Below, piece after piece: positions 7,128 through 15,399 of a stretch of 64,000 bases of DNA. The stretch covers positions 868,001 to 932,000 of the forward strand of contig NZ_CP087715.1 in the NCBI RefSeq assembly GCF_020991125.1, given 5' to 3'. The notes beneath the pieces were generated by a model. That model saw nothing but the letters and a program-made list of their open reading frames with translations, ran no database searches and was not told the DNA's origin. The stretch comes from Microbulbifer celer (GTDB lineage Bacteria > Pseudomonadota > Gammaproteobacteria > Pseudomonadales > Cellvibrionaceae). Position numbers and translations under genes: made by a program. Position 1 is the first letter of the stretch. Every line of letters begins with the position of its first letter.

Positions 7128-7271
7128 CCATAACAATCGCAGGCAGTATGCTCCGGCCCTTCGGGCCTCCGCGGGACGCCCAACGCTATGCACATTTTGT
7201 GCGGGTCGCTGCGCTCCCAATTTCGCACAAAATGTGCATAGCATTGGTCGCCCCTGCTGCGGGCGTTATGG
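7128..7271 (+). other. attC 5 (family A, long)
   Basis: CCATAAC to GTTATGG, 144 bp, very similar to attC 4. The accessory hairpin GGCCCTTCGGGCC is at 7155-7167. Confidence 0.9.
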
Positions 7272-7543
7272 TGCCGGGCCGTAAAAATGGTTGTCTGTGC
7301 CAACGTGTAATTTACAGCTCTGTTTTGGCACGCAGCATCCGGTTTTCTGCCGTGATAAAATCAAGCAGTTTCGTTCCTGGTGCTTTCGTTCAAGTTCGTA
7401 GGAATCGCGGTAAATCCGCTACAGTGACGTGGAGTGCCAATAAGAGAATAATTGGTTGGGGAAAGCTGGAAGTTCTTTCCTCGTTTTTAAGGAGCTTCGG
7501 CGCATTCGGTGCCCGTAGGTATTTCGGAGCGCGTCAGCCATAA
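7268..7543 (+). other. Cassette 6: repeated ORF-poor cassette, copy A
   Basis: This is one of four copies of a cassette body of about 273 bp that begins GTGCCGGGCCGTAAAA right after the core site and ends CGTCAGCC-ATAACC. In this copy alone a frame from ATG 7268 (inside R') stays open for 91 codons to the attC stop. The other three copies carry in-frame stops, notably TAA where this copy has CAA near codon 42, so the long frame is probably fortuitous. A conserved TGnTAAAAT is present near 7356-7364. It may be an RNA, a promoter cassette, or a decayed small-protein gene. Confidence 0.6.
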
Positions 7544-7656
7544 CCAGTCGCTGCAACCGACATCTTACTTTGGGCACTTTGTTGCGCAGTCGCTACGCTC
7601 CTATTTTCGCGCAACAAAGCGCCCAAAGTAAGCTGCGGCTGAGCGCGGCGTTAAAA
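7538..7656 (+). other. attC 6 (family D)
   Basis: CCATAAC to GTTAAAA, 119 bp, with arms CATCTTACTTTGGGC and GCCCAAAGTAAGCTG. This family closes all four copies of the repeated cassette. Confidence 0.9.
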
Positions 7657-7664
7657 ATCGGTCT

Positions 7665-7883
7665 ATGAACACAGGATATCTCTTCAAAATTATTTGGCGC
7701 GGTTGGTTTACTAGCGTAAGTATTCTGGCTTTCATAGCTGTTTTACTTGGATACTTTTTTGGTCCAGAGCTAGGGAAACCTCTCATCTTGCTCTTGGCCC
7801 TGGTCCCCCTAATAGCCGCGCTCCAAGGGGTGCTTGTGGCAGCATTGGTATGTGTTGGAGTCAAAATATGGCCTTTGAAATAG
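7665..7883 (+). CDS. Cassette 7: two-helix membrane protein
   Basis: A 72-residue hydrophobic protein with two membrane helices (about residues 17-33 and 39-66) joined by a short turn containing FGPELGKP. Charged residues sit only at the ends (KIIWRGW at the N terminus, KIWPLK at the C terminus). It starts nine bases after the attC 6 core. The family is not recognised. Confidence 0.7.
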   Translation: MNTGYLFKIIWRGWFTSVSILAFIAVLLGYFFGPELGKPLILLLALVPLIAALQGVLVAALVCVGVKIWPLK

Positions 7884-7899
7884 CTCAGAAGATAATTAT

Positions 7900-8010
7900 T
7901 TTTAACAAGGCCAGGCTGTACGCTCCGGCGCTGCGCGCCTCCGCGGGACGGCTTACGCTATGCGCTACGCGCATAAACAGCGCAGGCCGCCCCAGCTGGC
8001 AACGTTATGG
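7900..8010 (+). other. attC 7 (family C)
   Basis: TTTTAAC to GTTATGG, 111 bp. The accessory hairpin is GGCGCTGCGCGCC (7927-7939), in the same position as in family A but with different, paired bases. Confidence 0.9.
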
Positions 8011-8282
8011 TGCCGGGCCGTAAAATTAGTTGTCTGTGCCAGCGTGTAATTTTGAGCACTATTTTGGCACGCAGTATTTGGCTTTTTGCCATGATAAAAT
8101 TCAACAGATTCGTTCCTAGTGCTTTCGTTTAAGTCCAAAGGAATCTCGGCAACTCCGCTGTAGTAACGTGGAGTGCCAGTAAGAGAATAATTGGTTGGGG
8201 AAAGTTCAGAGTTCTTTCCTCGATTTTAATGGGCTGCGGCACCGTAGCTGCCAGTAGGTACCTCGGAGAGCGTCAGCCATAA
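8007..8282 (+). other. Cassette 8: repeated ORF-poor cassette, copy B
   Basis: This is the second copy of the cassette body described at 7268-7543, the same length (273 bp from the GTG to the attC TAA) and roughly 80-85% identical by eye. From ATG 8007 a frame runs 41 codons (MVPGRKISCLCQRVIL...) and stops at TAA 8130-8132. Copy D has a 41-codon frame of the same length with eight residue differences, several of them conservative. Copy C stops after 15 codons. A short hydrophobic peptide is therefore possible but not established. Confidence 0.55.
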
Positions 8283-8395
8283 CCAAGCGCTGCAGCCGAC
8301 ATCTTACTTTGGGCACTTTGTTGCGCGGTCGCTGCGCTCCTATTTTCGCGCAACAAAGCGCCCAAAGTAAGCTGCGGCTGAGCGCGGCGTTAGCG
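8277..8395 (+). other. attC 8 (family D)
   Basis: CCATAAC to GTTAGCG, 119 bp, nearly the same as attC 6. Confidence 0.9.
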
Positions 8396-8688
8396 TTTTT
8401 TATGAGTGTCGCCGCTTTTAAAAAAGAAAATGAGCGGTCGGCAATGATCAGAAAGTTCAGCGCTTCAAAGTAAAATCGCTGAAACGCTGGTACAAAATGT
8501 GTTCGTTTAGAATTCGGTGGTATAGATTCTAAAAGCATTTTCTGGAAGCGGCTCTGAGAGTCATTGCCAGGTTCGGTGCGGCGGTTGCGGAAAGCTTGCA
8601 TTCCAAGCTGGGCCCGCTGCGTAATTCGGTTGGGTTAAGTGGTTGCGGCCAGTTCGCACATGTAGCGAAGTTTGTCATTGCGTCATCG
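8396..8688 (+). other. Cassette 9: body without a convincing gene
   Basis: These 293 bases lie between two attC cores and contain no forward frame of useful length; the longest from an ATG at 8404 is 22 codons. A 131-codon frame on the - strand (8206-8601) runs through attC 8 and is judged accidental. It is the second type of gene-free cassette in the array. Confidence 0.6.
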
Positions 8689-8805
8689 CGCTAACAAAGC
8701 GCTGCAGGGGACGTCTTACGCTGTGCACCTTTTGCGCGGTCGCTACGCTCCCATTTTCGCGCAAAATGCGCACAGCGTAAGCCGCCCCTGAGCGCGGCGT
8801 TAAGC
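8689..8805 (+). other. attC 9 (family D-like)
   Basis: CGCTAAC to GTTAAGC, 117 bp, with arms GTCTTACGCTGTGCACCTTTTGCG and complement, and ends GCGCTGCAGGGGA and CCCCTGAGCGCGGC. Confidence 0.88.
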
Positions 8806-8808
8806 GTC

Positions 8809-9144
8809 ATGAATGAAGAACCAGTAATCGTCACAAATTTCGTTATCTACCAAGGCGAATACATAGTATGCCAATGTGGGTTTCAGGTTCTTGAGGTGGA
8901 AAAGCTTAATGTATTTCCCTCTACGGATGGAGGTGAGTTCGCAGTAGCCCATTCATACCAGGGCTCGGTCTGTAGTGTTGATCTTTCCTATCGCAAGGGC
9001 GGTAAATTAATACATTCTCTTAAACTGGAAATGCCAATAAATAAAACAAAAATAAAGTGGAAGGAAGCTAAATTTGGAGAAGAATTTCGGTTGTTTTATA
9101 GTAGCGGAGTTCAACCTTCGGTTAAAATTAGGCGGCCGATTTAG
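8809..9144 (+). CDS. Cassette 10: hypothetical protein
   Basis: A 111-residue soluble protein, predicted mostly beta (alternating hydrophobic strands such as VIVTNFVIYQGEYIVCQCGF). It has two close cysteines (CQC) near residue 21 and a basic C-terminal end. The start is four bases after the attC 9 core, so the ribosome site would have to overlap the core. The family is not recognised. Confidence 0.72.
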   Translation: MNEEPVIVTNFVIYQGEYIVCQCGFQVLEVEKLNVFPSTDGGEFAVAHSYQGSVCSVDLSYRKGGKLIHSLKLEMPINKTKIKWKEAKFGEEFRLFYSSGVQPSVKIRRPI

Positions 9145-9175
9145 GGGTTTTGAACACGCACAGAGCGAGGGCAAC

Positions 9176-9293
9176 GCTTAACAAAGTGCTGCAGAGGGAC
9201 GGCTTACCTTATGCACCTTTTTGCGCAGTCGCTTCGCTCTATTTTGCGCAAAAATGCGCATAAGGTAAGCCGCCCCTGAGCGCGGCGTTAGTT
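9176..9293 (+). other. attC 10 (family D-like)
   Basis: GCTTAAC to GTTAGTT, 118 bp, with arms GGCTTACCTTATGCACCTTTTTGCG and complement. Confidence 0.88.
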
Positions 9294-9300
9294 GCTATCC

Positions 9301-9735
9301 ATGAATGAGAATACGAGTGCACCATACATAGCATCCCTCACCGCCGGAGTGGTCGGCGGGTTGTATCTTGCATTGAATGAACTCATATTCTTCAGCGATG
9401 GGTTTTCATTCATGTTTGCGGGGTTGCTGGGTATTTTTCTATATGGCTTGTTGGGGCTGTTATTCGCGAGCATCCTTCTATTTCCACTAAAACCAATCTT
9501 CAAGAAATGTTCACTATCTATTTCCTGTATTAGTTTTCTAGTCGCCGGTATAGTAGTTCCGCTGTTATTGCAGCATGGCTTAAATCAAATACATGCTCAT
9601 GGCATCGATCCATACTCACCCGAAGAGAAATGGGGCACAATTAGCCGCATGGCTATAATTTGTTCTATTGGGGCTGCTAGCTCTCTTAGCGCTTGGTTCA
9701 CATTAAAAAGGGGGCTGCAAGCAAGTGGCAACTAA
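9301..9735 (+). CDS. Cassette 11: four-helix membrane protein
   Basis: A 144-residue integral membrane protein with four predicted helices (about residues 10-27, 38-60, 75-97 and 115-135). The start is ATG 9301; an in-frame TTG at 9292 falls inside the attC core. The stop codon overlaps R'' of attC 11. Hydrophobic profile and size resemble many small uncharacterised cassette membrane proteins. No family is recognised. Confidence 0.75.
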   Translation: MNENTSAPYIASLTAGVVGGLYLALNELIFFSDGFSFMFAGLLGIFLYGLLGLLFASILLFPLKPIFKKCSLSISCISFLVAGIVVPLLLQHGLNQIHAHGIDPYSPEEKWGTISRMAIICSIGAASSLSAWFTLKRGLQASGN

Positions 9736-9874
9736 CAAGGCCAAGCAGTTCGCTCCGGGCCTTCGGCCCTCCGCGGGACAGCTCACTTTGGGCACTTTAT
9801 TGCGCGGTCGCTGCGCTCCCATTATTGCGCAATAAAGCGCCCAAAGTAAGCTGCCCCTGTTGGCGGCGTTATAA
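9730..9874 (+). other. attC 11 (family A, long)
   Basis: AACTAAC to GTTATAA, 145 bp. The accessory hairpin GGGCCTTCGGCCC is at 9757-9769. Confidence 0.9.
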
Positions 9875-9887
9875 ATCCAAGTTACCC

Positions 9888-10217
9888 ATGAAAGCACTTT
9901 TTCCTCTGCTGTTACTCGTATTGCTCTCAGGCTGTATAACAGGAAACCCTTGGGAGCAGTTCATGACCAACGTTGAACACAACTATAAAGGTAAAGATTT
10001 TACCGAGGTAAAAGAATATCTGGCTCAGGGTGGTAGGTATGAAACTACTCCTGATACTGGATACAAGCTACCAAACGGCAATAGGCAGCATGAAATTGAC
10101 TGGGGAACAAGAGATGGTGCTACATGCACACTCATTCTAGAAGTAGAAAATAGAACTGATAAGATTGTTTCAGTTGGTGGTAAGGGTGGGCTACATGCCT
10201 GCTATTGGGGTGGATGA
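9888..10217 (+). CDS. Cassette 12: small lipoprotein
   Basis: A 109-residue protein starting MKALFPLLLLVLLSGC, a type II signal peptide whose lipobox LSGC predicts lipidation and anchoring in an envelope membrane. The mature part is polar, with EWxxR-type spacing absent and a glycine-rich C-terminal end (VGGKGGLHACYWGG) containing a second cysteine. ATG 9888 is chosen over longer in-frame extension because upstream codons lie in attC 11. The family is not recognised. Confidence 0.8.
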   Translation: MKALFPLLLLVLLSGCITGNPWEQFMTNVEHNYKGKDFTEVKEYLAQGGRYETTPDTGYKLPNGNRQHEIDWGTRDGATCTLILEVENRTDKIVSVGGKGGLHACYWGG

Positions 10218-10218
10218 T

Positions 10219-10329
10219 TTATAACCAGGCCAGGCAGTACGCTCCGGCGCTGCGCGCCTCCGCAGGACGGCCTACGCTATGCGCTGCGCGCATAAACAGC
10301 GTAGGCCGCCTCTGCTGGCAACGTTATGG
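10219..10329 (+). other. attC 12 (family C)
   Basis: TTATAAC to GTTATGG, 111 bp. The accessory hairpin GGCGCTGCGCGCC is at 10246-10258. Confidence 0.9.
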
Positions 10330-10601
10330 TGCCGGGCCGTAAAAATGGTTGTCTGTGCCAGCGTGTAATTTAGAGCACTAATTTGGCGCGCAGCATTTGG
10401 CTTTTTGCCATGGTAAAATTAAGCAGTTTCTTTCCTAGTGCTTTCGTTTAAGTTCATTGGGATAGCGGCAACTCCGCTGCAGTAACGTGGAGTGCCAATA
10501 AGAGAATAATTGGTTGGGGAAAGCTGGAAGTTATTTCCTCGTTTTTAAGGAGCTTCGGCGCATTCGGTGCCCGTAGGTACTTCGGAGTGCGTCAGCCATA
10601 A
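10326..10601 (+). other. Cassette 13: repeated ORF-poor cassette, copy C
   Basis: This is the third copy of the repeated cassette body, again exactly 273 bp from GTG to the attC TAA. It is closest to copy A in its 3' half. The frame from ATG 10326 stops after 15 codons at TAG, and a second in-frame TAA lies where copies B and D also stop. This copy therefore argues against a conserved protein. TGnTAAAAT is retained (TGGTAAAAT). Confidence 0.6.
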
Positions 10602-10714
10602 CCAGGCGCTGCAACCGACATCTTAATTTGGGCACTTTGTTGCGCGGTCGCTACGCTCCTATTTTCGCGCAAAAAAGCGCCCAAAGTAAGCTGCGGCTGA
10701 GCGCGGCGTTATGC
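10596..10714 (+). other. attC 13 (family D)
   Basis: CCATAAC to GTTATGC, 119 bp. One arm carries CTTAATTTGGGC in place of CTTACTTTGGGC, giving a mismatch in the stem. Confidence 0.9.
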
Positions 10715-10733
10715 ATCTAGATAAGGAGATCTC

Positions 10734-11036
10734 ATGAAACCGAGTGAATACAACAAAGAAGCTAGAGAAGCTTTTGGCAAAACTCTCGTTGATATCGGCA
10801 TGGCCGTTTTTAAGGGGATTATCCTACTGTTCACCATCATCCCGATTACAGCAATTCTTAAAAGTATCTTTGATGGCCCAGAATCTACAGATACTATGGT
10901 TCAAGCTTTCTTCACAATGGATAATGGTACGTACTTACTGCTCGTTGGTTTTATTGGGTTATCTTTCCTTATAGGTCATATTTTTAGGAAGGAAGGTCTC
11001 AAGCATATACATGCTGCAAACCAAGAAAATGCATAA
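10734..11036 (+). CDS. Cassette 14: two-helix membrane protein
   Basis: A 100-residue protein with an amphipathic charged N terminus (MKPSEYNKEAREAFGKTL), two membrane helices (about residues 22-44 and 67-86) and a basic tail. It has the best ribosome site in the array, AAGGAGAT seven bases before the ATG, suggesting that it is expressed. The stop codon overlaps attC 14. The family is not recognised. Confidence 0.8.
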   Translation: MKPSEYNKEAREAFGKTLVDIGMAVFKGIILLFTIIPITAILKSIFDGPESTDTMVQAFFTMDNGTYLLLVGFIGLSFLIGHIFRKEGLKHIHAANQENA

Positions 11037-11150
11037 CAAACAGCGGCAGAGCGACAGCCAACGCTACGCACCTTTTGTGTTACTCGCTGGCGCTCAAACA
11101 TTAACACAAAATGCGCTCCGCGCTGGCTGCGCCTGCGCTGGGCGTTATGT
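11031..11150 (+). other. attC 14 (family B)
   Basis: GCATAAC to GTTATGT, 120 bp, nearly identical to attC 2 and 15 apart from AATGCGCTCC near the right arm. Confidence 0.9.
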
Positions 11151-11163
11151 GTCCTACGGAAAA

Positions 11164-11448
11164 ATGAAAAATAGAGCCGTACCGATCACAGTTTCAATTG
11201 TAGTTCTAGTTGCGCTGTCAGTTCTATTCGGTGTTGCTTATGAGGAGTGGGATGGTCTCTGTGGCCACAAGGAAGAGTTTGGTCTTTTTCCGTTCTATCG
11301 TATTGGCATTCCATCTGATCCATCTGGAGAATGTTCGACGGGTTTTATAGCTAAGGGAGTAGTTCAAACTAGTATCGCGGTTATATTCTTAGTGGTCTCC
11401 GTGGTTTTTTCATTGCGGAAACACGAAGGGAAGGTAAAGTGCCAGTAA
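11164..11448 (+). CDS. Cassette 15: two-helix membrane protein (intact copy of cassette 2)
   Basis: A 94-residue protein with an N-terminal helix (PITVSIVVLVALSVLFGVAY), a loop containing two cysteines (GLCGHKEEF, GECSTGF) and a C-terminal helix (TSIAVIFLVVSVVFSL). The cassette is almost base-for-base the same as cassette 2, which carries an IS3 insertion; this copy shows the uninterrupted target sequence. Start ATG follows TACGGAAAA, a weak ribosome site. Function is unknown. Confidence 0.8.
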   Translation: MKNRAVPITVSIVVLVALSVLFGVAYEEWDGLCGHKEEFGLFPFYRIGIPSDPSGECSTGFIAKGVVQTSIAVIFLVVSVVFSLRKHEGKVKCQ

Positions 11449-11452
11449 CTCC

Positions 11453-11572
11453 ACATAACAAACAGCGGCAGAGCGACAGCCAACGCTACGCACCTTTTGT
11501 GTTACTCGCTGGCGCTCAAACATTAACACAAAAAGTGCTCCGCGCTGGCTGCGCCTGCGCTGGGCGTTATAC
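11453..11572 (+). other. attC 15 (family B)
   Basis: ACATAAC to GTTATAC, 120 bp, identical to attC 2 except at the last core bases. Confidence 0.9.
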
Positions 11573-11581
11573 GCAACCAAC

Positions 11582-12040
11582 ATGAAACATAGTGCCGACG
11601 AATACAATGTTCTGAGCTATCTCTTGAAGAAGAATGCTATTTCTTACGAGAAAGTTGTCGAATGGGCATACTCCCAATACACGGATGAGGGAGTTGATCC
11701 ATTTGTTGAGAAAACATCTTTGGCATCTGATATTTCTGAGGTTCTAGAATTGATAAGCAACGGGTTCCGAGTGCACGGAGAGCCAAGCCAAGAATTTCTT
11801 GCTGGTGAAGTTGCCAGTGAATATTCAAAAGAAAAATTGTCATTGTATGATGCTGTAGCACGCATACTTTTCGATCTTGATTTGGATTTGTCCGAAGAAG
11901 AGCGCCAAGAGCTATACATCGCTGAAGATTACTTTGGCTGGCATAAGCAAGCAGAAAAAGAGGCTGTAAATCATGCGCTACCAATTTTTAGTAAATACAG
12001 GCCCATATATGAGCACGCTATTGCAAAGTTCAGCGTATAA
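11582..12040 (+). CDS. Cassette 16: acidic hypothetical protein
   Basis: A 152-residue acidic, helical cytosolic protein starting MKHSADEYNVLSYLLKK. It has no membrane segment or signal. The patterns DEYNVLSYLL and DLDLSEEERQELYIAEDYF resemble small immunity-like proteins in tone (acidic, all-alpha), but I do not recognise a family and none is claimed. The stop codon overlaps attC 16. Confidence 0.75.
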   Translation: MKHSADEYNVLSYLLKKNAISYEKVVEWAYSQYTDEGVDPFVEKTSLASDISEVLELISNGFRVHGEPSQEFLAGEVASEYSKEKLSLYDAVARILFDLDLDLSEEERQELYIAEDYFGWHKQAEKEAVNHALPIFSKYRPIYEHAIAKFSV

Positions 12041-12154
12041 CAAGTAGCGGCAGAGCGACAGCCAACACTACGCGCCTTTTGTGTTACTCGCTGGCGCTCA
12101 AACATTAACACAAAAAGCGCTCCGCGCTGGCTGCGCCTGCGCTGGGCGTTAGCT
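12035..12154 (+). other. attC 16 (family B)
   Basis: GTATAAC to GTTAGCT, 120 bp. Confidence 0.9.
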
Positions 12155-12166
12155 GTAAGAGGAAGT

Positions 12167-12583
12167 ATGAAGCATAAAGAGAAAGTTGAAGAAGTGGTGG
12201 ATCTTCAAACAAATGATGAAAATAAATTGCTTCAACTTTCTAGTTTTGAGCTATTCGGCAATGGAGCTTTCAAGTGCCGAGTCACATTAAGTTCTCGCGG
12301 CTTCGCTTATACAGGGGACGCCTATTTTGATAATGGCGTTTCATTTATTAATGATCTTGAAATGGCCGCTACAGATTTTATCGGATCGGCTGAGCTGAAA
12401 GAAGATTACAATGATCACTTTATAAAACTTGAAGTAAATAGTATGGGGCATGTGATCGTTAGCGGTACTTTTATCGAGTATAGCGACCACTCGCAAAATA
12501 TGTCATTTGAGTTCAAAACAGATCAAACTTGTCTTGGCGGGTTCATCAATGCATTCAAAAAGGTCGTGCTACGAAACAGCTAA
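12167..12583 (+). CDS. Cassette 17: WapI-immunity-like protein (tentative)
   Basis: A 138-residue soluble, beta-rich protein. The order of features, a strand with GFAYTGDAYF, a helix FINDLEMAATDFIGSAEL, then GHVIVSGTF and the closing segment MSFEFKTDQTCLGGFI, resembles the WapI-family / DUF6228-type immunity proteins that neutralise contact-dependent toxins. This is recognition by pattern only and would need a profile search. No toxin gene lies next to it, as expected for an orphan immunity cassette. Confidence 0.6.
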   Translation: MKHKEKVEEVVDLQTNDENKLLQLSSFELFGNGAFKCRVTLSSRGFAYTGDAYFDNGVSFINDLEMAATDFIGSAELKEDYNDHFIKLEVNSMGHVIVSGTFIEYSDHSQNMSFEFKTDQTCLGGFINAFKKVVLRNS

Positions 12584-12697
12584 CAAACAGCGGCAGAGCG
12601 ACAGCCAACGCTATGCACCTTTTGTGTTACTCGCTGGCGCTCAAACATTAACACAAAAGGCGCTCCGCGCTGGCTGCGCCTGCGCTGGGCGTTAGTG
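12578..12697 (+). other. attC 17 (family B)
   Basis: AGCTAAC to GTTAGTG, 120 bp. Confidence 0.9.
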
Positions 12698-12964
12698 TTT
12701 TAAGAGTATTTGAGAAAAATCGGCTTCGTAGATAGTAATGTAAAAATTCCGGTGGTGGCTCGAAGTGTGGATTTCTCAAATTCATTGCTGAAAACGTGGT
12801 CCCACCATTTGGCTTTAGTTGTCAGGTAGAAACTTTCAGAAGTATTGTGTGTGCGGAAAGGCACTGTGGAAGGTATAAAGTTTTATAAAAGGAGTTTCCC
12901 GTTCGTTCTCTTGGGTGGTGGCATCAGATAATTTTCCAGGAAAACGCTCGGTAGAAACCCAAAA
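12698..12964 (+). other. Cassette 18: body without a convincing gene
   Basis: No forward frame of useful length is seen in these 267 bases. ATTTGAGAAA (12708-12717) and TTTCTCAAAT (12772-12781) are perfect inverted repeats, and CTTCG/CGAAG pair inside them, so a transcript would fold into a long hairpin near its 5' end. A structured RNA is possible. Confidence 0.5.
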
Positions 12965-12991
12965 CACTAACAAGGCGCTGCAGGCCGACGG
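12965..12991 (+). other. attC 18, truncated by an IS
   Basis: CACTAAC followed by AAGGCGCTGCAGGCCGACGG is the left 27 bases of a family D-like attC. The IS3 element begins at 12992 and the right half is absent on the far side, so a deletion accompanied or followed the insertion. Confidence 0.8.
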
Positions 12992-13042
12992 TGATCTTCC
13001 CCCGCTTTAGCGGACACCAAAGTCAAACTGACGAGGTGTCTG

Positions 13043-13408
13043 ATGCCGAAATGCAACAACCCCAAAAAAACCTGGAAGTATTCAAACGAATTCAAAGTAA
13101 AAGCAGTATTGCTCAGCTTAATTGACGGTGTTCGAGTAAAAGAGGTGGCCGCTACACTCGACATTCATCCGTTCATGCTGTCACGATGGCGAAAAGAGTA
13201 TAGGGATGGAAAGATAGTGGCTGATAAAAGAAAGAAGTTGACCGGGGTAGTGTCCAAGCATGAGAAAGAGCTGTCGAAAGTAAAGCGCTTAGAAGCGGAG
13301 AATCGGAAGCTCAAACAGGAGGTCGATCTGCTAAAAAAGTGGCAACGGTTTCTTGCGGAGGAACATCAGCAAGGTATCGATTCATCCAGAGATTTGGACA
13401 AGAGCTAG
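13043..13408 (+). CDS. IS3-family transposase OrfA
   Basis: A 121-residue helix-turn-helix protein (VKEVAATLDIHPFMLSRWRK) followed by a long coiled coil (KRLEAENRKLKQEVDLLKK). AAAAAAG at 13333-13339 in the LLKK codons is a typical -1 slippery site for making the OrfAB fusion. The start MPKCNNPKK is preceded by GACGAGGTG, a reasonable ribosome site. Confidence 0.92.
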   Translation: MPKCNNPKKTWKYSNEFKVKAVLLSLIDGVRVKEVAATLDIHPFMLSRWRKEYRDGKIVADKRKKLTGVVSKHEKELSKVKRLEAENRKLKQEVDLLKKWQRFLAEEHQQGIDSSRDLDKS

Positions 13409-14226
13409 GTATACGAAAAACATGTGAGTGGCTGGGCGTGTCACGCAGTGGCTACTATGACTGGGTGAAAAGGCCGCTATCAGGTAGAAAGTGCGAAGAT
13501 GAAGACCTGAAAACACAGATTCAGCAAATATTTGATGAATCTGCAGGGCGCTATGGTAGTCCGCGAATCTGGAAAGCACTGCAGAACCAAGGTTATGAGG
13601 TTAGTCGTAAGCGTGTAGCCCGTTTGATGCAGGAGATGGGGCTAATAGGTAGGGTAACTCGCGTAACACGAAGAGCGCCGGGTGTGAAGCGTTTCCTGGC
13701 TTCTGGCGACAATCTTCGATCGGACGGAGCAGTGCCAAGTAGCATGAACCAGGTTTGGGTTGCTGACGTAACGTATCTAAAAGTTAAGGGCCAATGGCAT
13801 TACTTATCAGCCATCATGGATTTACACTCTCGTCGAGTTGTCGGGTGGAGCTTAGATACGAAGAGAACAACCGAGCTTACTAGAAGAACGCTGGCAAATG
13901 CTGTAAGGAAAAGAGGTGCGCCACCAGGATTGATGCTGCATACAGATAGGGGCGTTGAGTACCGAGGGTCTGAATACCAAAAGGACCTGAAACGATACGG
14001 TATTCAGCATAGCTTGAGTCGGCCAGGTAAGTGTACTGACAATGCTCATATGGAGTCGTTCTTCCATAGCCTCAAAGCCGAGCTAATTCGAGGTACAATC
14101 TTCCACAAAGCGAGCGATTTAAAGTATGCTTTGGCTCGGTATATTAATGATTTCTATAACCGTAAGCGGCTGCATTCTGCGCTAGATTATCAATCTCCGA
14201 TGGAATATGAACGAATAGCAGCATGA
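13339..14226 (+). CDS. IS3-family transposase OrfB
   Basis: The catalytic DDE transposase, with an HTH_21-like N terminus (CEWLGVSRSGYYDWVKR), the GRYGSPRIW segment and the acidic triad in VADVTYLK, LHTDRGVEY and HMESFFHSLK. The frame overlaps orfA by 70 bases in the -1 register, so a GTG at 13339 is only formal; translation comes through the frameshift. All key residues are present and the element appears functional. Confidence 0.92.
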   Translation: MATVSCGGTSARYRFIQRFGQELGIRKTCEWLGVSRSGYYDWVKRPLSGRKCEDEDLKTQIQQIFDESAGRYGSPRIWKALQNQGYEVSRKRVARLMQEMGLIGRVTRVTRRAPGVKRFLASGDNLRSDGAVPSSMNQVWVADVTYLKVKGQWHYLSAIMDLHSRRVVGWSLDTKRTTELTRRTLANAVRKRGAPPGLMLHTDRGVEYRGSEYQKDLKRYGIQHSLSRPGKCTDNAHMESFFHSLKAELIRGTIFHKASDLKYALARYINDFYNRKRLHSALDYQSPMEYERIAA

Positions 14227-14260
14227 AAAATGGTGTGTCCGTTTTATCGGGGCAAGATCA

Positions 14261-14558
14261 TTCGGATCGGGGCGTTCAATACCGGTCAGGAGAGTACCAA
14301 AGCTTGCTCCTCAATGAGGGTATTCAACCAAGCATGAGCCGAAAAGGTAACTGCTGGGACAATGCAGCAATGGAGTCATTCTTCGGCAGGATGAAGGTCG
14401 AGTCTATCTTCGCGGAAGAGCTGGCCAATAAGCAAGAAGCTCTTTCCTGTGTGTTTGAATATATAGAAATGTTTTATAACACGGTGCGTAGACATTCGGC
14501 TAATGATCAGGTCAGTCCGAACGAATTTGAGGGAGCATATTTTGAAAATTGCGCCTGA
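14261..14558 (+). pseudogene. IS3 OrfB fragment
   Basis: The encoded 99 residues run from the second acidic motif (HSDRGVQYRS) through NCWDNAAMESFFGRMK to the C terminus VSPNEFEGAYFENCA. This covers the last two of the three catalytic residues; the N-terminal half, including the first aspartate, is missing. It is therefore inactive. The reading frame happens to run in from the end of the adjacent intact IS. Confidence 0.9.
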
Positions 14559-14588
14559 AAAACTGTCTACTTCTCGTGGGTAAGATCA
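14261..14588 (+). mobile_element. 3' fragment of a different IS3-family element
   Basis: About 328 bases of a second IS3 element remain: the C-terminal part of its orfB and its right end, CTCGTGGGTAAGATCA (14573-14588). The 5' part is missing and the neighbouring IS3 element occupies that side. The same 16-base end is found alone at 19802-19817. Confidence 0.85.
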
Positions 14589-14611
14589 GTCACACAAGCA
14601 CGATTAATGAG

Positions 14612-14878
14612 GTGAATTTGAGCGATATAGGAAAATCTGAATGTGAGGAAAAACAGCGGCGCCTTCTAAAGGGAAAGCTTGGTGGCTCTATTTTCTTATT
14701 TGGACTGATTGTGGTGGCTATATTTGATCGCACAATTTACTTACCGGGTAGAGAGGGATTTATTCACGAGTCCGAGAACCCAACGTTATTTATGTTCATG
14801 TTTTTAGTCTTGGTGTTTTTAAGTGGCCTTTCTTTCTATCAGGGTTACACTGGGCTCTACACCAAGTCAAAGACTTAA
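14612..14878 (+). CDS. Cassette 19: two-helix membrane protein, 5' end uncertain
   Basis: At least 88 residues with two membrane helices (LGGSIFLFGLIVVAIFD and LFMFMFLVLVFLSGLSFY) and a KLGG linker. No ATG or cassette core lies between the IS end (14588) and the gene. GTG 14612 or TTG 14618 are possible starts, and the original start and upstream attC half may have been removed with the IS. The in-frame codons further up read into IS sequence. The family is not recognised. Confidence 0.65.
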   Translation: MNLSDIGKSECEEKQRRLLKGKLGGSIFLFGLIVVAIFDRTIYLPGREGFIHESENPTLFMFMFLVLVFLSGLSFYQGYTGLYTKSKT

Positions 14879-15016
14879 CAATCACGGGCAGTGAAGCTCC
14901 GGCCCTTCGGGCCTCCGCGGGACGGCTTACCTTATGCACGTTTTGCGCGGTCGCTACGCTCCCATTTTTGCGCAAATCGCGCATAAGGTAAGCCGCCCCT
15001 GCCGTGGGCGTTATGG
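14873..15016 (+). other. attC 19 (family A, long)
   Basis: ACTTAAC to GTTATGG, 144 bp. The accessory hairpin GGCCCTTCGGGCC is at 14901-14913. Confidence 0.9.
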
Positions 15017-15286
15017 TGCCGGGCCGTAAAATTTGTTGCTTGTGCCAGCGTGTAATTTTGAACACTGTTTTGGCCCGCAGCATGTGGCTATTTGCCATGA
15101 TAAGATCAAGCAGTTTCGTTCCTAGTGCTTTCGTTTAAGTTCATAGGAATCGCGGAAAGTCCTCTGCAGTAATGTGGAGTGCCAGTAAGATAATGAGTAG
15201 ATGCGGAAATTTTGCATTCTTTCCGTGTCTTTAATAAGCCGGGAGCCATCGGTGCCAGTAGGCATTACGGGGCGCGTCAGCCATAA
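15013..15286 (+). other. Cassette 20: repeated ORF-poor cassette, copy D
   Basis: This is the most divergent of the four copies, 271 bp from GTG to the attC TAA, with a rearranged stretch near 15190-15245. From ATG 15013 a 41-codon frame (MVPGRKICCLCQRVIL...) ends at TAA 15136-15138, matching the frame in copy B. The rest of the frame downstream is closed. TGATAAGAT replaces TGATAAAAT. Confidence 0.55.
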
Positions 15287-15399
15287 CCAGGCGCTGCAAC
15301 CGACATCTTACTTTGGGCACTTTATTGCGCAGTCGCTACGCTCCTATTTTCGCGCAATAAAGCGCCCAAAGTAAGCTGCGGCTGAGCGCGGCGTTACAT
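15281..15399 (+). other. attC 20 (family D)
   Basis: CCATAAC to GTTACAT, 119 bp. Confidence 0.9.

Follow-up and report, generated by a model that had tools for sequence, protein, structure and literature searches.

What function, if any, is carried by an integron cassette that has no clear gene and recurs four times in one array? The question arises in a 64,000-nucleotide stretch of the Microbulbifer celer genome (positions 868001-932000 of a single 4.35 Mb contig, NZ_CP087715.1; hereafter the window), in which an integron cassette array spans approximately 3.1-18.6 kb. An initial annotation, made from the letters of the window, pointed to four dispersed copies of such a cassette and proposed a promoter, a small RNA, or a microprotein. 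Large integrons often contain gene-less cassettes, for which there is little explanation. We find that the four copies belong to a gene-less cassette family that is real and mobile and has a conserved core; it is not a protein gene and probably encodes a conserved structured RNA, a reading suggested by helices that covary across genera.

A mobile cassette family without a gene

All four copies were found where the initial annotation had placed them, with about 273 shared bases, one attC family of approximately 112 bases, and bodies of 276, 276, 276, and 274 bases by its limits, three of them equal in length as it had noted. A 41-base pattern written from the four copies, starting at body base 6, occurs at exactly 4 places in the window and at none in 100 shuffles, and the pairwise identity of the copies, body and attC together, is 85.2-92.0%. 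GTTA and TAAC form the boundaries of each window body, which an attC follows; both boundary motifs were seen in 156 of the 177 family sequences, 21 being without.

Four dispersed copies are real but too narrow a count, as BLAST recovers 20 copies, all full or nearly full, from five arrays of this genome (labelled G000 in the coordinates below) and the core model finds 21 places. With a crude attC finder we located 103 attC-like sites and 92 bodies, spread over six stretches of the genome, and in this crude segmentation the gene-less family is the largest, with 18 of the 92 bodies; the next families have 6, 4, and 3. The finder is too crude for many distant copies, for which it found neither side in 66 of 172.

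Each window copy has a twin (99.2-100% identity) that sits in another array beside different neighbours. Copy 1, over its 386 bases, is 100% identical to G000:2340862-2341247 and G000:2345530-2345915; copy 2 is 99.7% identical, with one gap column, to G000:2334206-2334592; copy 3 is 100% identical to G000:1004109-1004494; and copy 4 is 99.2% identical to G000:2330094-2330477. Comparison of the flanks of the twin pairs revealed no neighbouring stretch longer than 150 bases in common. Since the twins have different neighbours, the gene-less unit moves as a cassette, and since these near-identical twins lie in other arrays with unlike flanks, the window copies belong to distinct subfamilies and are not products of local duplication. 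Three copies stand in direct tandem at G000:1,003,725-1,004,879.

The genome has one strong integron-integrase match (TIGR02249), at 1,001,077-1,002,015 beside one array; the match table flags one TAA in the matched span, and direct reading gives an open 361-residue frame with the catalytic region. The arrays at 0.87, 2.33, 2.54, 3.09, and 3.61 Mb lie away from this match, and copies in three of them (0.87, 2.33, and 3.61 Mb) match copies of the integrase-linked 1.00 Mb array at 99.7-100% identity. TIGR02249 scored over its cut-off in 42 of 48 Microbulbifer genomes, marking the genus as integron-rich. One copy in another locus (L074:1319-1593) looks mosaic by eye, its 5' half resembling a long-form clade and its 3' half the close clade to which the window copies belong, which suggests recombination between copies.

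The core is conserved across genera and families

Counting the M. celer genome throughout, BLAST matched 14 of 58 genomes, all within Microbulbifer. The core model reached further, matching 28 of 48 Microbulbifer genomes (147 places, some partial). In the family, it matched at E<=0.01 in 25 of 120 genomes, which represent 7 of 32 genera, five of these genera below E 1e-6 and two weakly, at E 5.0e-4 and 0.006. For the order we used a second model, which at E<=0.001 gave matches in 18 of 390 genomes, representing 11 of 143 genera; outside the family of M. celer, its matches at E 1.1e-6 or better fall in four families, and three genomes in this search lie between 1e-4 and 5e-4 and may be chance. 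These family and order matches overturned a restriction to the genus that BLAST and the class samples had indicated. The class samples matched only M. celer itself (1 of 369 genomes with the first model, 1 of 274 with the second), an absence that is soft; the order and class searches scored just 7-10 candidates per genome.

Conservation is highest in the blocks TTTCGTTCCT-G-GC-TTCG and GTGG-GTGCCA-TAAG and in the two arms of a hairpin that we call P3. The initial annotation had tied the cassette to a single attC family, which holds in the close clade; copies in other clades start with other attC sites (first ~30 bases compared). Plasmid and phage sequences did not match the core, the one 44-base match to a Klebsiella plasmid lying downstream of it, and in viral contigs we found one match to one pattern, which scores 15.3 bits to the model and is taken as chance, and 0 to a second pattern. 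Other loci carry further features of note: L200:1165-1290 holds a degenerate fragment of the core whose attC boundaries are unclear, and the best integron-integrase match of that genome falls below the cut-off; the stretches around family copies in L089, L090, L093, and L223 contain group II intron domains at the Rfam gathering level.

The initial annotation argued that repeated capture of a non-coding cassette suggests a function, and the identical copies in different arrays, together with the conservation of the core across genera and families, strengthen that argument. The persistence of one homologous family in several genera and families, with more copies than any other cassette in one genome, is strong evidence for a selected function in some gene-less cassettes.

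The element is not a protein gene

The element is not a protein gene, because substitutions fall evenly on the three codon positions. Parsimony counts by position are 116/106/104 in 33 distinct close copies (p 0.68) and 918/920/878 in 139 distinct copies (p 0.60); the 41-codon frame alone gives 57/50/42 in the close clade and 448/445/394 in the 139 copies. The coding control, 14 intI genes, gave 659/419/1668 and had full power at 326 changes. We used intI as no coding cassette in the loci examined had enough distinct homologues; the only candidate among the cassettes, with 25/23/23, runs antisense over a gene-less copy in L077.

The frames themselves agree, by eye, with those that the initial annotation listed: from the ATG in the core site, copy 1 has 91 codons, copies 2 and 4 have 41, and copy 3 has 15, so that, of the definition of gene-less used for Vibrio cassettes (no annotated gene and no frame >70 codons), copies 2-4 stay under the length limit in this frame and copy 1 exceeds it. 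Among the 33 distinct close copies, frames from this ATG run to 5, 11, 15, 24, 41, and 91 codons in 1, 1, 11, 1, 15, and 4 copies. The ATG is present as claimed and belongs to the attC R-box, forming part of a terminal complementarity that other window cassettes also show (4-11 bases, perfect, in the 21 listed window bodies); terminal inverted repeats were accordingly rejected as a special feature of the element. Two copies compared with the intI/attI stretch show complementarity to it of 10 bases or fewer.

A decayed protein gene, or a microprotein retained as a repeat, would account for the 91-codon frame of copy 1 and for some translated words that look alike across clades, and some Vibrio gene-less cassettes are described as decayed genes (PMC11014356). 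Against it stand the lack of codon periodicity beside a strong intI control, frames that vary from 5 to 91 codons, and two 131-amino-acid frames of the element that matched nothing in Pfam or NCBIfam at E<=1. The microprotein option of the initial annotation is contradicted by the first two of these observations, and we regard the whole explanation as highly improbable.

Covarying helices suggest a structured RNA

Structures were evaluated in three sets of hand-chosen sequences (A4, A5, and A6, with 10, 18, and 27 sequences) and in Microbulbifer alone. For the 10 sequences, all from other genera, RNAalifold predicts hairpin P3 and a hairpin equivalent to Pa, together with a short long-range helix and a stem P1 that encloses an inner hairpin. 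These comprise 32 pairs, 11 of them with double changes; covariation is 0.349 versus 0.236 when shuffled (reached in 0 of 500), and versions slid along the alignment score at most 0.169. For the 27 sequences, which come from several families, the combined score of P1, P2, and P3 is 0.251 versus 0.177 when shuffled (0 of 500), with slid versions at most 0.145. A tree-aware null, in which columns evolve independently on the tree in 300 simulations, reached the observed value in 0 of 300 for the 10 sequences, 2 of 300 for the 27, and 0 of 300 for P3 of the 27. Helices that covary beyond shuffled, slid, and tree-aware controls were thus found across genera in the chosen sequences.

Hairpin P3 is also the one hairpin that RNAalifold finds in Microbulbifer alone, with 95.7% of cells paired and double changes in 4 of 7 pairs. 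Its stems have a mean strength of 14.3, against 7.2-12.1 for the best stems in other element windows (those overlapping P3 excluded), and its loop has 9 bases in 126 of 169 sequences. In 50 Microbulbifer copies, 80-base windows covering P3 fold with a mean z near -1.9 on either strand, most other windows lying between 0.0 and -1.4. In stem P1, two pairs switch together among the 18 chosen sequences, which include the four window copies: A-U in 9 goes with G-C in 7 for one, and C-G in 9 with U-A in 7 for the other. Within the window, one P1 pair is C-G in copy 1, U-A in copies 2 and 3, and a G.A mismatch in copy 4. We take the support for P1 to be moderate. Cells with G.U outnumber those with A.C by 89:33, 50:11, and 59:9, an excess that favours the sense strand as the carrier of the structure, with a bias from the way the structures were discovered.

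Several results weigh against a structured RNA. Within Microbulbifer alone, P3 covariation is not significant (the tree null reached it in 33 of 300), and among 51,360 column pairs scanned in the genus none has E<0.05. P1 of the 27 sequences is weak under the tree null, reached in 26 of 300 simulations for covariation and 3 of 300 for pairing, and a free search for its partner arm scored 18.7 versus 17.3 +/- 3.6 for shuffled arms. The whole body of copy 1 folds like its shuffles on both strands (z -0.69 and -0.99); loci L081 and L091 have folding z of -1.44 and -3.35. RNAalifold predicts no pair when 41 cross-genus cores are aligned together. Both the pair counts and the strand test are biased, since we derived the structures from the sequences used to test them, and on the sense strand. 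The small-RNA option of the initial annotation gains from the hairpins that covary across genera.

Two further treatments of P3 were dropped. Compensatory counts after re-registering it were discarded as inflated, as control windows score as high or higher, and its reading as an intrinsic terminator was rejected, the U-tract being found mainly in the close clade. Some rows were left out of the comparisons: one list leaves out 1 of 77 matches (E 0.001) and another 4 partial copies of 143; 169 of the 177 family sequences entered one comparison, the 8 others having been judged divergent or partial; and alignments A2 and A3 hold 47 of 50 listed references and 41 of 43.

On this evidence, we consider it probable that the family is a conserved structured RNA carried as a gene-less integron cassette. 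The cassette body, about 290 bases, would specify this RNA, which is non-coding and lies on the array-sense strand; copying and dispersal of the body as a unit would be the work of the integron machinery. The body may be transcribed as part of the array or may have its own start, and its RNA would fold into Pa, P1 with an inner hairpin, and P3 and would act as a regulatory RNA. The covarying helices make this a concrete proposal: a structured RNA that would travel by site-specific recombination and not beside a protein gene. The features on which the proposal is based are listed in Table 1.

Table 1. Window coordinates of the cassette copies, their conserved cores, and the predicted structural elements of copy 1
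Feature	Position	Strand	Details
Copy 1	7268..7653	+	gene-less body 7268-7543 and attC ~7541-7653
Copy 2	8007..8392	+	body and attC ~8280-8392
Copy 3	10326..10711	+	body and attC ~10599-10711
Copy 4	15013..15396	+	body and attC ~15284-15396
Conserved core, copy 1	7361..7492	+	model R1, 140.3 bits
Conserved core, copy 2	8100..8231	+	model R1, 137.6 bits
Conserved core, copy 3	10419..10550	+	model R1, 137.3 bits
Conserved core, copy 4	15106..15236	+	model R1, 123.2 bits
Predicted hairpin Pa, copy 1	7297..7331	+	GTGCCA 7297-7302 with TGGCAC 7326-7331, arms read from sequence
Predicted stem P1, copy 1	7334..7384	+	AGCATC 7334-7339 with GGTGCT 7379-7384
Conserved GTGGAGTGCCA block, possible small hairpin P2	7429..7439	+	near-invariant columns; 78.7% of cells paired
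Predicted hairpin P3, copy 1	7458..7482	+	GGGGAAAG 7458-7465, 9-base loop, CTTTCCTC 7475-7482

Possible modes of action and alternative explanations

If the body does encode such an RNA, we tentatively favour action in trans, by a small RNA that is released from array transcripts, because copies precede unrelated genes and occur in tandem, where a role in cis would be redundant. A cis-acting leader is compatible with a structured RNA; here the RNA would remain on the message of the downstream cassette and alter how that message is terminated, processed, or translated, for instance by antitermination that carries polymerase through the many attC hairpins of an array. The structure is held across genera, and the copies of this genome that we examined sit upstream of another, varied cassette in the array direction, both of which fit a leader. 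The redundancy of tandem copies and the lack of a conserved U-tract after P3 do not, and we consider a leader somewhat unlikely. A promoter cassette, whose body starts transcription of the next cassettes and whose conserved blocks are promoter or regulator sites, is likewise compatible with a structured RNA. The dispersal of copies through the arrays, with many different cassettes after them, would suit it, and most of the gene-less Vibrio cassettes that have been tested are reported to show sense promoter activity (PMC11014356). Scanning 138 copies with a sigma70 matrix, we found no sigma70-like site common to most of them: copies and shuffles have equal best scores on both strands (sense, 7.49 versus 7.29 +/- 1.70; other strand, 6.84 versus 7.59 +/- 1.79), and a second promoter scan of the region gave 14 sites versus 11.9 +/- 3.1 expected, which is no excess. 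The best shared position lies in the P3 loop, with TATTCT as its commonest form, and passes the threshold in 49% of the 138 copies, a point in favour of a promoter, but reads AGTTCT in the clade of the window. The initial annotation had further noted that all copies keep TGnTAAAAT or TGnTAAGAT; this extended -10 motif is indeed present in the window copies, as TGATAAAAT (twice), TGGTAAAAT, and TGATAAGAT, but is absent in the other clades of the family. A promoter would also leave the covarying hairpins unexplained and sits poorly with three copies in tandem. The promoter option of the initial annotation is thus unsupported by scans that cannot decide it, since the Vibrio authors state that consensus promoter prediction fails for such cassettes (PMC11014356); we regard it as possible but doubtful.

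The conserved core might instead be structured DNA, its single-strand folds aiding excision or insertion by the integrase and so giving a high copy number without any RNA. The gene-less family is the most amplified one, and attC sites act as folded single strands, which would agree with this. The body lies outside attC, however, and G.T pairing favours the top strand (by a biased test), whereas the integrase uses the bottom strand of attC; other, coding-size cassette families are present in several arrays without this core. We judge this explanation quite improbable. Returning to the structured RNA, a broader version would have integrons across several families of one gammaproteobacterial order carry an undescribed structured RNA class as a mobile, protein-free RNA gene that sets the expression of whole arrays or of the integron itself. 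We consider this version distinctly unlikely.

Neighbouring cassettes and an insertion-sequence-like element

There is a second family of cassettes lacking a long frame (50 codons at most), at window 8389-8695, G000:2338010-2338306, and G000:3621602-3621900; each of its three copies adjoins a copy of the main element. An insertion sequence (IS)-like element at window ~12990-14260, IS3-like by look only and with overlapping frames at 13043-13408 and 13339-14226, interrupts an attC. Directly before it, at 12691-12990, lies a further cassette stretch without a listed frame of at least 70 codons. The left end of the IS-like element, TGATCTTCCCCC, is found again in the 1.018 Mb array, where it breaks the attC of a gene-less family copy at G000:1018229 (L067), which suggests that the IS-like element targets attC.

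Comparison with known RNA families and gene-less cassettes

In the loci scanned, no Rfam 15 family reached its gathering score over the element, the gathering matches being group II introns elsewhere. Matches below threshold were confined to miRNA models on attC palindromes in the window and a 23-base JUMPstart match (E 4.2) in one distant copy. We found no paper describing this cassette family in a limited set of open papers judged by title and abstract opening. The 2008 genome paper of Saccharophagus degradans reports an integron with satellite repeat sites (PMC2386152). If confirmed, the element would be an RNA family unrecognised by Rfam 15 and a new class of cargo for integrons.

Among the nearest precedents is sRNA-Xcc1 of Xanthomonas, cited as a case in which cassettes without an open reading frame (ORF) encode regulatory RNAs (PMC8876359). 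Like our element, it is a non-coding RNA found on integron cassettes, with reported evidence of horizontal transfer (PMC12444791, PMC8876359, PMC4909258); unlike it, the Xanthomonas RNA is described as sharing its cassette with symE, in the direction opposite to Pc (PMC12444791). The covariance model of sRNA-Xcc1 (RF02221) has no match to the element. It does match elsewhere in 8 of 48 Microbulbifer genomes at E<=1, 2 of them over the cut-off; the match in the M. celer genome, at 1,435,120-1,435,198, lies away from the cassette arrays examined, and five loci around the Microbulbifer RF02221 places contain no match to model R1.

ORF-less cassettes of Treponema from an oral metagenome are also gene-less, with reported promoter activity (PMC6557892), and are described as differing in host and in integron layout (PMC11014356). 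The gene-less, or promoter, cassettes of Vibrionaceae superintegrons resemble the family in having attC, no protein gene, and a place in large chromosomal arrays; the study tests 29-30 cassettes singly for promoter activity, and a regulatory role is shown for those tested (PMC11014356). Unlike these, the cassettes described here form one homologous family across genera and families, occupying up to 21 places per genome, and they share no promoter-like site in most copies but a conserved core with covarying helices.

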